Shown here: positions 4,279 through 6,980 of the stretch, one piece after another
How the letters are laid out: the number at the start of each line of letters is the position of its first letter
How positions within the stretch are numbered: position 1 is the stretch's first letter
NCBI GenBank assembly: GCA_937981945.1
Contig: CALJNJ010000299.1
Span: 1-13,465, forward strand
Direction: 5' to 3'
DNA: 13,465 bases
Origin: an uncultured Caulobacterales bacterium
Lineage (GTDB): Bacteria > Pseudomonadota > Alphaproteobacteria > Caulobacterales > Maricaulaceae
Program-made: the position numbers and the translations under genes
The notes under the pieces: generated by a model
Told to the model about the DNA's origin: nothing
What the model saw: the letters and a program-made list of their open reading frames with translations, nothing else
Database searches by the model: none

Positions 4279-4707
4279 TTAAAACGGTTCTATGACGGCC
4301 AAAATAACAATAATAATGGTCGCAATGGCGGGAACTTCATTAAAGGCGCGGAAAAATTTTTCACTTTTCGGGCGTTCACCGGCCTCAAATCTTTTACGCA
4401 TTTTCGATAAAAATCCGTGATACCCAAAAAGCGCAAACACCAAAAGAAGCTTCAAATGTAGCCAACCCTGACCCGTCCAAGCATCCTGTCTGAGCCATAG
4501 AAGCGCCAAACCGAAAACCAGTGCGGCGATCATAGCCGGGTTCATAATAATTCTGAAAAGTCGTTTTTCCTGGAGCTTTAAAGTCTCATCCAGCTCTCCG
4601 CCAAGCTGAGCCCCCGAATGATAAACAAATAGCCGCGGCAAATATAAAAGCCCCGCCATCCAAAAGATAACAGCAATAATATGAAAAGCCCTCATCCACT
4701 CATACAT
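4279..4707 (-). CDS. hemJ: Protoporphyrinogen IX oxidase HemJ (UPF0093 family)
   Basis: 142 aa. HemJ oxidises protoporphyrinogen IX to protoporphyrin IX, the penultimate step of heme synthesis, in the inner membrane. It is the oxygen-independent-type enzyme common in Alphaproteobacteria. Recognition comes from the N-terminal pattern AFHIIAVIFWMAGLLYLPR (7-25), with H9 as a family-conserved His, followed by YH at 29-30. Further matches are EKRLFRIIMNPAM near 47-59 and the segment GWLHLKLLLVFALFGYHGF near 81-99, where K86 is conserved. Four membrane segments are visible (about 7-27, 55-72, 84-100, 120-140). The ATG lies inside the 3' end of hemE (8-bp overlap), so the two are translationally coupled and co-transcribed. 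Length and motifs are normal for the family. Confidence 0.95.
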   Translation of the reverse strand: MYEWMRAFHIIAVIFWMAGLLYLPRLFVYHSGAQLGGELDETLKLQEKRLFRIIMNPAMIAALVFGLALLWLRQDAWTGQGWLHLKLLLVFALFGYHGFLSKMRKRFEAGERPKSEKFFRAFNEVPAIATIIIVILAVIEPF

Positions 4708-5728
4708 ATTGCCCGTCTCCCGTTCTGACGTGATTGATCACGGCTAATACGTTTTCAGGTTTTACGTCGGGCGCTACGCCGTGTCCCAGATTAAAAATAT
4801 GGGGCCCTTCCAACGATTCCAAAACATTTTGAACCGAAGATCTGAGTGTGTCTCCCCCAATGCGTAGTGCCAAAGGATCAAGGTTTCCCTGTGTGGCAAT
4901 ATTTTTTGTCAAAAGAGATTTAAACTTTTTGACCGGTACATCCGTCCCAAGCGCGCAAGCGCTAATATCCAATTGATTGGCATATCGGACAGCATTCAGC
5001 CCGGCGCCGCGGGGAAATCCCATAATCGGAACGTCTATACCGGCCTCTCTGACCAAGCGTATAATTGTTTCCGTAGGTTTTATGACAAGCCGATCAAATA
5101 AATCAGGCGCCAAATTTTCAGCCCAACTTTCAAATATCTTCAATACATCTGCGCCGGCTTTCGCTTGTCTGATCAAATATTCGGCGCTGGCGACCGCAAT
5201 GGATTCAAGCAGAAGATCCATGTCGGATCTATGTTCGTAGGCAAACCGCTTAGCTATTTCCTTTTTCGGACTGCCGCGACCTTCAATCATATATGTTGCA
5301 ACAGTCCAGGGACCTCCGCAAAATCCGATCAGCGTTTTATGGCTTTCCAAATTTGATCTGACATTTGAAAGGGTTTCATAAACCGGTTCGAGAACGCTCA
5401 TATCAGGTTTAAAAGATCTGATATCCTCAATCGTAATAGGATCAAGAACCGGTCCGGTACCTTTTATAAAATCAACTTTTCGGCCAAGCGCAATGGGAAC
5501 CAATAAGATATCCGCAAATAAAATTGCGGCATCCATGTCATAACGACGAATAGGCTGTAAGGTAACTTCAGCTGCCTTATTCGGCGAAAAACAAAAATCG
5601 ATGAAATTTTTTGTACTCGCCCGAACTTCCATATATTCAGGCAGGTGTCGACCTGCCTGGCGCATCATCCAGATCGGATACGGTGTTACGGGTTTGCCCG
5701 CTAAGACTTTCAGTATGGCTTGGGTCAC
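4700..5728 (-). CDS. hemE: Uroporphyrinogen III decarboxylase HemE
   Basis: 342 aa cytoplasmic enzyme that removes four carboxyl groups from uroporphyrinogen III to give coproporphyrinogen III in heme synthesis. The substrate-binding signature IWMMRQAGRHLPEY (19-32, with R23 and R27) and the catalytic Asp73 in AAILFADILL are present. So are GFCGGPWTVATYM, MGFPRGAG and the C-terminal FNLGHGV with its conserved His. The start is GTG at 5728; the frame begins VTQAILKVLAGKPVTPYP and matches family length. No Shine-Dalgarno is seen, and a promoter predicted at 5742-5771 would leave a leader of only about 7 nt. It is the left border of the origin, as in Caulobacter. The ferrochelatase gene that often accompanies it is absent here; hemJ follows directly. 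Confidence 0.97.
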   Translation of the reverse strand: MTQAILKVLAGKPVTPYPIWMMRQAGRHLPEYMEVRASTKNFIDFCFSPNKAAEVTLQPIRRYDMDAAILFADILLVPIALGRKVDFIKGTGPVLDPITIEDIRSFKPDMSVLEPVYETLSNVRSNLESHKTLIGFCGGPWTVATYMIEGRGSPKKEIAKRFAYEHRSDMDLLLESIAVASAEYLIRQAKAGADVLKIFESWAENLAPDLFDRLVIKPTETIIRLVREAGIDVPIMGFPRGAGLNAVRYANQLDISACALGTDVPVKKFKSLLTKNIATQGNLDPLALRIGGDTLRSSVQNVLESLEGPHIFNLGHGVAPDVKPENVLAVINHVRTGDGQYV

Positions 5729-5741
5729 GGATATATATCTA

Positions 5742-5771
5742 GTTATACGGCCCTGTTTTGTCTCCCCTCAA
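5742..5771 (-). promoter_or_regulatory. Possible hemE promoter
   Basis: On the minus strand TTGAGG (5771-5766) and TATAAC (5747-5742) are 18 bases apart. The -10 matches consensus at 5 of 6 bases and the -35 at 4 of 6. The predicted start site near 5735 leaves about 7 nt before the hemE GTG, so the transcript would be almost leaderless. This agrees with the missing Shine-Dalgarno. It lies on the far side of the trio/DnaA-box element, so transcription would start inside the origin. Confidence 0.4.
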
Positions 5772-5782
5772 ATAAATATATT

Positions 5783-5800
5783 TAGTGGTAATAGTAATAG
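5783..5800 (-). promoter_or_regulatory. DnaA-trio-like repeat (predicted unwinding element)
   Basis: Six consecutive trinucleotides read on the plus strand as TAG TGG TAA TAG TAA TAG. Read 3' to 5' on that strand they are GAT/AAT units, the pattern described for DnaA-trios in the basal unwinding system of Bacillus subtilis and other bacteria. Five of six fit; TGG does not. They are separated by a short GC patch (GGCT, 5801-5804) from two tandem DnaA-like boxes and are followed on the other side by the AT-only run AAATAAATATATTT (5770-5783). The order box-box-GC-trio-AT matches the described layout. Confidence 0.6.
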
Positions 5801-5804
5801 GGCT

Positions 5805-5821
5805 TGTGGATGTGTGGATGA
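5805..5821 (-). promoter_or_regulatory. Tandem DnaA-box-like pair
   Basis: On the minus strand TCATCCACA (5821-5813) and ACATCCACA (5813-5805) follow one another with a shared base. Against TTATCCACA the first has one mismatch and the second two. The core ATCCACA is intact in both, as in the moderate-affinity G-boxes (TGATCCACA) reported for Caulobacter. Their 3' ends face the trio repeat. Confidence 0.6.
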
Positions 5822-5823
5822 AA

Positions 5824-5838
5824 TTAACCTTTGGGTAA
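5824..5838. promoter_or_regulatory. Near-consensus CtrA-type site
   Basis: TTAACCTTTGGGTAA fits TTAA-N7-TTAA at 7 of 8 defined positions. It begins two bases after the DnaA-box pair and exactly 21 bp before the next CtrA-type site. In Caulobacter, phosphorylated CtrA binds such sites in the origin to block initiation. Confidence 0.5.
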
Positions 5839-5844
5839 GGAAGT

Positions 5845-5859
5845 TTAATATCCGCTTAA
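5845..5859. promoter_or_regulatory. Consensus CtrA-type site
   Basis: TTAATATCCGCTTAA is an exact TTAA-N7-TTAA match. In AT-rich DNA such a match can arise by chance. Its place in an origin beside DnaA boxes and its 21-bp (two-turn) phasing with the 5824 site make function more likely. Confidence 0.6.
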
Positions 5860-5901
5860 TCTTAGACTTTTTATTAAATTGTTATTTTGTGAATTGAATT
5901 A

Positions 5902-6114
5902 GGGGAAAAATAAGAATTGGGCCAAAAAACTAAAAAGATCCGTAACATAAATGTGAATAATTCCGGGGAAAATTTTTGGGATAAAAATTATTCATAGGTT
6001 TCCCTGTGAGGGGATAAAAACATTTACAGAATAGAATTTTCTCGGATTAACTTGAAAAACAATACTCTTGTTTCGGCGACTTCTCGTCACAAAATTATCG
6101 CTTGTGGGGAAAAA
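5902..6114 (+). repeat. Dispersed GGGGAWAAA motif in the origin
   Basis: The same short plus-strand word recurs at 5902 (GGGGAAAAA), 5965 (GGGGAAAAT), 5978 (GGGATAAAA), 6010 (GGGGATAAA) and 6106 (GGGGAAAAA). The reverse complement of the 6010 copy contains TTATCCCCT, which matches a DnaA box at 7 of 9 positions, and the 6106 copy contains TCCCCA on the minus strand. A weak TCCCCA-type DnaA site (W-box) has been described in the Caulobacter origin, so these may be low-affinity DnaA sites. Confidence 0.4.
5952..5996. repeat. Inverted pair of DnaA boxes
   Basis: TGTGAATAATT (5952-5962) and AATTATTCATA (5986-5996) are inverted copies with one mismatch in 11. The left arm contains a DnaA box fitting TTATNCACA exactly (TTATTCACA, minus strand, 5960-5952). 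The right arm contains TTATTCATA (5988-5996, plus strand), one base off. The 23-bp centre holds two further GGGRA-type motifs. Confidence 0.55.
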
Positions 6115-6137
6115 CGAATAAGTTAAGAATTTACTCC

Positions 6138-6980
6138 GTGAGCAATCGTAACAAAAACATCGCCGTCTATTTCCATGTCCACTTAGTTTCTGATTCAACC
6201 GGAGAAACGTTGGTGGCTATGATGAAGGCCAGCTGCGCTCAGTTCAGGCACGCTACGCCTCTGGAACATTTGCACGCTTTGGTCCGAACTGAAGAACAAA
6301 TGAGCAGAACCATCCATGATATTGAGATCAAACCCGGCGTCGTTCTCTATACGATTGCCAATCCGGATCGCCGAAAAATGCTCGAAGAGTTTTGTGCCGA
6401 TCGGCGGATTCCCGCTATTTCAATTCTGGATCAATCACTAGCCATGCTCGGGCGCTATCTCGGAGCATCGGTGACCCATGAGGTCGGCGCGCAGCGAACT
6501 CTTGATAATGAATATTACGACCGGATTGCGGCGCTGGACTTTGCCATGGCCCATGATGACGGACAAAATGTGACCGGGCTTAAAAATGCCGATATTGTCC
6601 TTTTGGGCATTAGCCGAACGTCAAAAACGCCGACCAGTATTTATCTCGCCAATCGCGGGTTTAAGACCGGAAATATTCCGCTGGTACCGACAGCCCCGCT
6701 GCCGGTTATTCTGGAAACGTTTACGGACCCGTTTATTGTTGGCTTGGTGGCGAGCCCGGACCGGATTGCCCAAATCAGAACCCAAAGATTAGTGGGGCTG
6801 AACGAAAAAGGCACAACTGATTATACGGATATTGATAAAGTCCGGGATGAAATGCGCCAAGCCAAGCGAATGTTTGTCAAAAAGGGCTATCCCGTTGTCG
6901 ACGTAACGCGCCGCTCCATTGAAGAAACCGCCGCAAAGATTATAACCCTGTATCACAAGCAAAAGTCAGACAGGTCATAA
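6138..6980 (+). CDS. ppsR: Bifunctional kinase/pyrophosphorylase (DUF299, PpsR/PDRP family)
   Basis: 280 aa from the GTG at 6138. Family members both phosphorylate, using ADP, and dephosphorylate, using phosphate, a Thr on PEP synthase or pyruvate phosphate dikinase, switching carbon flow between pyruvate and PEP. The N-terminal HLVSDSTGETL signature and the P-loop GISRTSKTP (157-165) are intact, as is the RDEMRQAKRMF...VDVTRRSIEETA C-terminal segment. The frame is also open upstream to a TTG at 6102, but that would add 12 residues from within the origin, and the GTG gives the usual family length. The Shine-Dalgarno is weak. It is the first gene right of the origin, equal in position to RP001/CC0001. 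Its stop overlaps the maf ATG by one base. The PpsR name follows the E. coli enzyme and is unrelated to the photosynthesis repressor of the same name. Confidence 0.93.
   Translation: MSNRNKNIAVYFHVHLVSDSTGETLVAMMKASCAQFRHATPLEHLHALVRTEEQMSRTIHDIEIKPGVVLYTIANPDRRKMLEEFCADRRIPAISILDQSLAMLGRYLGASVTHEVGAQRTLDNEYYDRIAALDFAMAHDDGQNVTGLKNADIVLLGISRTSKTPTSIYLANRGFKTGNIPLVPTAPLPVILETFTDPFIVGLVASPDRIAQIRTQRLVGLNEKGTTDYTDIDKVRDEMRQAKRMFVKKGYPVVDVTRRSIEETAAKIITLYHKQKSDRS

Follow-up and report, generated by a model that had tools for sequence, protein, structure and literature searches.

A putative DNA-opening module of DnaA boxes and trio-like triplets next to a pair of CtrA-type sites in a Hellea-type hemE/PpsR chromosome origin

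The window, a stretch of 13,465 nucleotides from the draft genome (1.86 Mb) of an uncultured Caulobacterales bacterium, carries a gap of 409 bp between hemE on the minus strand and the gene of a COG1806-type regulator (PpsR) on the plus strand. Within the window the cumulative GC skew has its minimum at 5251-5750. The same hemE/COG1806 pair flanks Cori of Caulobacter crescentus, an experimentally known origin, according to the available text of PMC1914354. Two further Cori-type traits are found at this locus, namely TTAA-N7-TTAA sites near DnaA boxes and, in the same genome, a CtrA gene recognized with 426.7 bits, above the cut-off. The window contains a Hellea-type (Caulobacterales) hemE/PpsR origin, whose features are collected in Table 1.

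Table 1. Features of the origin region and their positions in the window
Feature	Position	Strand	Basis
hemE, uroporphyrinogen decarboxylase, GTG start	4700..5728	-	TIGR01464, 360.2 bits
Intergenic region hemE-PpsR, predicted chromosome origin with Cori-type flanks	5729..6137	.	NCBIfam flanks, GC skew and Cori comparison
Purine-rich block GAGGGGAG closing the AT run	5762..5769	-	alignment column counts
AT-only run AATATATTTATTT	5770..5782	-	with the distal triplets, least stable stretch of the gap
Six triplets CTA TTA CTA TTA CCA CTA	5783..5800	-	direct reading, motif search; period-3 test (39 origins)
Short GC spacer AGCC (GGCT/GCCT type in relatives)	5801..5804	-	direct reading and motif search
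DnaA box 2 ACATCCACA, 2 mismatches, one base common with box 1	5805..5813	-	direct reading and box scan
DnaA box 1 TCATCCACA, 1 mismatch	5813..5821	-	direct sequence reading and box scan
Proximal CtrA-type site TTACCCAAAGGTTAA, 1 mismatch, ending 2 bp before box 1	5824..5838	-	site scan
Distal CtrA-type site TTAAGCGGATATTAA, TTAA-N7-TTAA, 0 mismatches	5845..5859	-	site scan
Further DnaA box TTATTCACA, 1 mismatch	5952..5960	-	box scan
Pyruvate phosphate dikinase / PEP synthase regulator, COG1806-type (PpsR), GTG start	6138..6980	+	NF003742, 309.5 bits

Read on the minus strand, the hemE side of the gap shows DnaA boxes, a GC patch, triplets and an AT run, in the order and at the coordinates given by the original prediction, both of which are right by direct reading. 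The two boxes and the GC patch that it named are there, but the boxes overlap by one base (the A at 5813, with the centres 8 bp apart) and the patch comprises only four bases. Six trio units had been announced and six do follow in register from 5800 to 5783, although the fifth, CCA, departs from the published motif at its middle position, which leaves the published base in five of the six and in a contiguous run of four from triplet 1. The plus strand, 3'-GAT AAT GAT AAT GGT GAT-5', would be the strand bound by DnaA. As to the sequence criteria published for the basal unwinding system (BUS), the tandem co-oriented boxes, for which at most two mismatches are allowed in the better one and at most four in the other, have one and two; the four contiguous middle-A triplets (3'-NAN-5') from triplet 1 compare with the at least three demanded; and the first triplet lies 4 bp from box 2 and 12 bp from the better box 1, within the 0-16 bp, peaking at 10-13 bp from the better box, stated in the accessible part of PMC8287927. 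Among the 25-bp stretches in the window's gap, 5770-5794 has the lowest duplex stability, and GAGGGG follows directly after the AT run on the minus strand. The purine-rich block is mostly purine in relatives too.

A module score of 29.0 was obtained for the site, with weights for boxes, spacer and trio bases that were chosen from the published consensus after the site had been seen. None of 2000 dinucleotide shuffles of the gap came up to this score, their mean being 15.5 and their maximum 26.5. A simplified version of the BUS survey rule, as worded in the part of PMC8287927 at hand, gave hits in 50.5% of 1000 shuffled versions of the AT-rich gap; within the window, the longest run that it picked out was one of five triplets at 5939-5925 and not the noted 5800-5783 array. 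Since it matches half of the shuffles and prefers another run, this loose rule is no evidence here and was rejected as such. The second run (5925-5960; TTATTCACA, 12 bp, ATC TTT TTA GTT TTT) fits the loose rule better than 5800-5783 does.

Opening of the E. coli type would assign these parts differently. The AT run would act as a classical unwinding element, with DnaA at other boxes capturing its T-rich strand after bending and the triplets only weakening the duplex, or else the run 5939-5925 behind the box 5960-5952 would serve. The location of the AT run within the least stable stretch of the window's gap, the presence of further DnaA boxes and the match of the published-type rule to 5939-5925 are compatible with such an opening, which is nevertheless unlikely: conservation over 5921-5960 is poor (mean 0.39 bits in 29 origins, against 1.10 over 5781-5820), and register, tandem-box spacing and C/A periodicity are all kept, none of which is needed by composition alone.

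For comparison with relatives, identical regions were collapsed from 139 to 126, and the 11 of these 126 without a hemE boundary were kept apart. In 29 aligned origins, window included, the conservation of the gap in 40-bp steps is highest over the box/triplet module (about 1.1 bits). An unsupervised motif search, gapless by design, recovers box 2, the GGCT-type spacer, the six triplets, the AT run and the purine block from 39 hemE-proximal regions of near relatives (the Hellea clade), which represent at least seven genera and include the window's own. The register is conserved in these 39 origins, with consensus triplets of approximately CTA CAA CTA TCA CTN CTT. The middle T (A on the DnaA-bound strand) averages 4.0 of 6 in register 0 against 1.9 in either shifted register, and is present at four or five of the six triplets in 32 of the 39. 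Counted from triplet 1 to triplet 6 it occurs in 36, 17, 29, 8, 34 and 33 of the 39 origins; at triplets 2 and 4 most relatives have a relaxed middle base. Near-relative sequences are not independent because of their common ancestry. Retention of the 3-base phase in relatives was the check named beforehand in the original prediction, and the 39 near-relative origins and nine loci of genus g12 (see below) fit it; a box/trio-type module reading towards hemE is therefore well supported as anatomy.

The window agrees with the published BUS sequence criteria, but many relatives do not. Three contiguous middle-A triplets are found from triplet 1 in 14/39 origins and anywhere within the six in 21/39, a box plus run by the published-type rule in 11/39, and 16/39 lack, over the 26 nt that precede the array, any box with two or fewer mismatches to TTATCCACA. 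The likeness to the B. subtilis DnaA-trio element that had been claimed for the window thus holds for the BUS-type layout towards hemE, but the module is not a plain copy, the middle base being relaxed and the boxes weaker. The least stable 25-bp stretch begins 0-30 nt after triplet 1 in 22 of the 39 origins and elsewhere in 17, with a median fraction of less stable windows of 0.01 (39 origins).

Several further patterns were tried and discarded. A strict odd/even alternation of the triplets, suggested by the tables of 29 and 39 sequences, is broken by genus g12, where most loci are strict at triplet 2 and most are relaxed at triplet 3, and a relaxed middle base is therefore preferred over alternation. 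A conserved hairpin at the AT run (CCC...GGG arms in some relatives) gave a mean z of -0.58 in the 39 origins against -0.27 in control segments, with z below -2 in six against two in controls, and is not a general feature. A narrow DNA pattern for the module, run on whole genomes, was too strict to inform, matching 3 of 41 genomes at four places, one of them (G002:C21) off the origin locus. The motif search in genera g8 and g10 settled mostly away from the module.

Both TTAA-N7-TTAA sites listed in Table 1 are the only ones of this type (at most one mismatch) in the window's gap. CtrA sites had been placed in this origin from the beginning, and they are found at a fixed distance beside the module: the proximal slot (20-25 nt before triplet 1) holds a site with at most one mismatch in 30/39 origins (mean 0.89 and maximum 5 in 300 mononucleotide shuffles) and the distal slot (41-46 nt before triplet 1) in 22/39, the window being included in both counts. 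The two sites occur together in 19/39, spaced by 21 bp in 16 and by 20 bp in three. Altogether 98 such sites with at most one mismatch are present in the 17,288 bp of the 39 gaps. The placement differs in other clades. Genera g5, g15, g16, g11 and g14 have a CtrA-type pair, often with the 21 bp spacing, at approximately 220-250 bp from hemE and approximately 100 bp upstream of the first triplet, not beside the boxes. This clade-dependent placement agrees with the statement in PMC4468827 that marine and freshwater origins probably came to use CtrA independently of each other.

Genus g12 separates the module from hemE, which was not found beside the origin in 10/11 loci. When g12 was left out of the training, the resulting matrix located the module in 9 of these 10 loci with scores of 16.6-45.5; 40 shuffles did not exceed -5.3, and the runner-up position within the real loci reached 2.4 at best. 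The pieces scanned were of 961 bp, except L014 (3819 bp) and L090 (420 bp), and this short tenth locus scored -0.4. The gene rho adjoins the module in six of the nine (L014, L081, L085, L086, L091 and L092), and the CtrA-type sites are seen at 23 nt in 8/9 loci and at 44 nt in 7/9. In this genus the module is INDEPENDENCE from hemE. Because it is kept in nine g12 loci in which no hemE was found, it belongs to the origin and not to hemE.

This bears directly on transcription control of hemE, whereby CtrA and DnaA sites would regulate the hemE promoter and the triplets would be incidental. CtrA and DnaA are also transcription factors (stated in the text seen of PMC4468827), the CtrA sites, boxes and triplets lie approximately 40-130 bp upstream of hemE, and in relatives the hemE start is closely preceded by a TATAAT-like stretch. 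Retention of the cassette in g12 without a hemE found, with rho in six of the nine loci, largely refutes it; moreover, the conservation peak coincides with the box/triplet block and not with the 40 bp adjoining hemE, and a period-3 structure is unexpected for a promoter. Control of hemE is thus a very improbable explanation.

In order to follow the triplets beyond Caulobacterales, 66 genomes were searched, of which 45 had the regulator (the window's included); 42 loci were retained (two partial matches excluded), 32 had a usable hemE boundary, and 31 were analysed, each from another family and all from other alphaproteobacterial orders, with L214 (Caulobacterales) left out. Ten loci were dropped, four with hemE beside the gap and a match start too late for the threshold, the rest with no usable match. 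An assumption-free motif search over the 31 families returned ATCCCCGttATCCACAGGCAtcAACaACca, tandem boxes followed by a C-N-A array. C-N-A on the box strand corresponds to 3'-GNT-5' on the DnaA-bound strand. After the box, C-N-A reaches z=9.0 relative to shuffles, the middle-T pattern -2.0 and C-T-N -0.1, and period-3 power amounts to z=6.4 for C, 3.8 for A, 1.1 for G and 0.5 for T, with no base above z 1.3 in the 30 nt upstream of the boxes. When the best five-triplet window was chosen by outer bases only (threshold 8 of 10), a C..A array was found in 19/31 families, against 0/31 on the opposite strand, 1/31 on the PpsR side and 7.6% of shuffles. On the box strand, these 19 arrays have C 37 times, A 31 times, T 26 times and G once in the middle position, so that a middle A occurs on the DnaA-bound strand in 26/95. 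The single middle G on the box strand (1/95) indicates that C is avoided there on the DnaA-bound strand. The published trio rule, in the text available of PMC6727663, lets the ends vary and requires a middle A. By their sequences, the alphaproteobacterial arrays show the reverse, the outer bases being kept and the middle one free.

A periodic C-N-A could also be a coding remnant, an upstream extension of hemE with codon periodicity. An in-frame stop between the array and the inferred hemE start is present in only 9/19 class arrays, which leaves room for such an extension, but it is present in 34/39 near-relative origins (window included). Since the 30 nt ahead of the boxes show no periodicity, g12 has arrays without hemE and G is nearly missing from the middle positions, this explanation is hardly credible.

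The Hellea clade does not follow the class pattern in full. After the box, z values are 12.8 for C-N-A, 12.3 for C-T-N and 1.2 for N-T-N, so that C-T-N is as periodic as C-N-A, which counts against a simple C-N-A code there; its period-3 power (C 10.8, A 10.4, T 4.2) is inflated by relatedness. Other Caulobacterales (58 origins from the same family, genera g4, g5, g7, g8, g10, g11 and g14-g16) show a weak C-N-A signal (z=3.4), and 0/58 reach four of five triplets. By the outer-base measure, arrays are found in 0/7 origins of f2, 0/4 of f5, 1/27 of the Asn187 group and 11/25 of the Ser187 group; the Gln187 genus (g7) has arrays in 4/12, yet also 3/12 on the control strand.

The Asn187, Ser187 and Gln187 groups are named after the DnaA residue aligned with a trio reader of B. 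subtilis. In the B. subtilis complex, following the accessible text of PMC10721633, Arg202 and Glu228 make contact with the guanine and Asn187 with the middle adenine, and the middle bases usual at triplets 2 and 4 of the relatives work poorly in B. subtilis. DnaA could be read in 87 of the 90 loci fetched. The guanine-reading positions are Lys at 202 and Glu at 228 in 87/87. Position 187 is Tyr, Phe or His in 27 of 28 DnaAs of other orders (Y23, F3, H1, N1; these 28 do not match the 31 origin families exactly, G149 lying outside them), S23, A10, N4, G1 and R1 in 39 DnaAs from the Hellea clade (a set that differs from that of the 39 origins), and S9, N9, A1 and Q1 in 20 of other Caulobacterales. 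An earlier pass over 83 DnaAs had given Y23, F4, H1 and N1 for 29 of other orders, with Lys202 and Glu228 in 83/83. The DnaA of the window's own genome has Ser, Lys and Glu at the positions aligned with B. subtilis 187, 202 and 228, and its initiator-specific motif is longer by three inserted residues. Between 193 and 202, within this motif, 3-8 extra residues are found in 39/39 Hellea-clade DnaAs (L164 and 38 others; RGKDRKAIEAFK, compared with RDNKAVDFR in B. subtilis), and this insertion is absent in the 20 DnaAs of other Caulobacterales and the 28 of other alphaproteobacteria. The overall pattern fits a kept guanine reader together with a changed adenine reader. Within Caulobacterales residue 187 does not simply track the array type, and few independent ancestral events may lie behind the association of residue and array.

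An element with this order, register and conservation, seen at a Cori-type origin position, in the least stable part of the window's gap and independently of hemE, is likely to be the module by which the DNA of the chromosome origin is opened, with the DnaA-box/DnaA-trio BUS as its plan. DnaA would dock on the two weak boxes, its AAA+ oligomer would extend in the 3' to 5' direction over the plus-strand triplets, and the AT run would be opened towards hemE. Bound to its two sites, which at a distance of 21 bp are separated by two helical turns and lie on one face of the DNA, CtrA~P would cover or crowd box 1, and opening would be blocked as a result while CtrA is active. For Cori, the text at hand of PMC4468827 gives steric exclusion of DnaA by CtrA as the simplest mechanism, and cites that a Cori without CtrA sites perturbs the normal cycle mildly only. 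What is added here is the identity of the DnaA site that the CtrA-type pair abuts, as read from the DNA.

As part of the same likely explanation, alphaproteobacterial DnaA would read the triplets mainly by the outer guanine (3'-GNT-5') and be relaxed towards the middle base, owing to replacement of the residue that recognizes this base in B. subtilis, and Hellea would be an intermediate still favouring a middle A. A bolder reading goes further. We consider it conceivable, if somewhat doubtful, that the class uses an inverted trio code (ends 3'-GNT-5' fixed, middle free; Lys for Arg202 and Glu228 kept, Asn187 mostly changed to Tyr) and that the Hellea clade, with mostly Ser or Ala at 187 and the motif insertion, is an intermediate in which the module became fused to a tandem CtrA pair, the repressor gating the first opening step directly.

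With the B. subtilis BUS (DnaA-boxes 6/7 and DnaA-trios) the module has in common two co-oriented boxes, a short GC spacer, in-register triplets and AT-rich DNA, and box-strand CTA triplets equal to 3'-GAT-5'. It differs in the middle A, relaxed at triplet 5 in the window and at 2 and 4 in most relatives, in the class consensus 3'-GNT-5', in boxes that deviate more, in the adjacent CtrA sites and in the changed DnaA residue 187. With Cori, compared by description and not by sequence (the text available of PMC4285127, PMC1914354 and PMC4468827), it shares the hemE/COG1806 flanks, an AT-rich part, CtrA TTAA-N7-TTAA sites and weak DnaA boxes with a second-base change. Cori has five CtrA sites spanning the origin and TGATCCACA G-boxes in those descriptions, in the parts of which covered here no trio array appears, while the Hellea window has two CtrA-type sites 21 bp apart abutting the box pair. 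Among the boxes with at most two mismatches in the window's gap the G-box is absent, box 1 being TCATCCACA. The origin of the marine Caulobacter MCS10 (Shaheen et al. 2009) reportedly has one CtrA site paired with a critical DnaA box, against two CtrA-type sites in the Hellea clade; trios are not known to have been described by 2009.

The literature passages covered here that name both DnaA-trio and CtrA mention the two elements separately, and C. crescentus is named there in one sentence on trios and DnaA-ATP, without description of an array; an earlier trio alignment for alphaproteobacteria may exist. The 2021 BUS survey covered all five proteobacterial classes (PMC8287927, text available in part), and its supplement should therefore hold alphaproteobacterial origin predictions. 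The same source reports that 15% of origins are without trios and suspects deviant motifs without the middle adenine. C-N-A would be a concrete class-wide candidate for such a deviant motif, with a change in the DnaA residue that contacts the middle base; since candidate motif and residue change come together, recognition is testable by swaps. The known CtrA control of replication would act at a single mechanical step, by governing whether DnaA can reach the box from which the opening filament is loaded. Finally, the TATAAT-like stretch of the relatives stands directly before the hemE start codon (5729-5750 in the window), which suggests a leaderless hemE or a misplaced hemE start.
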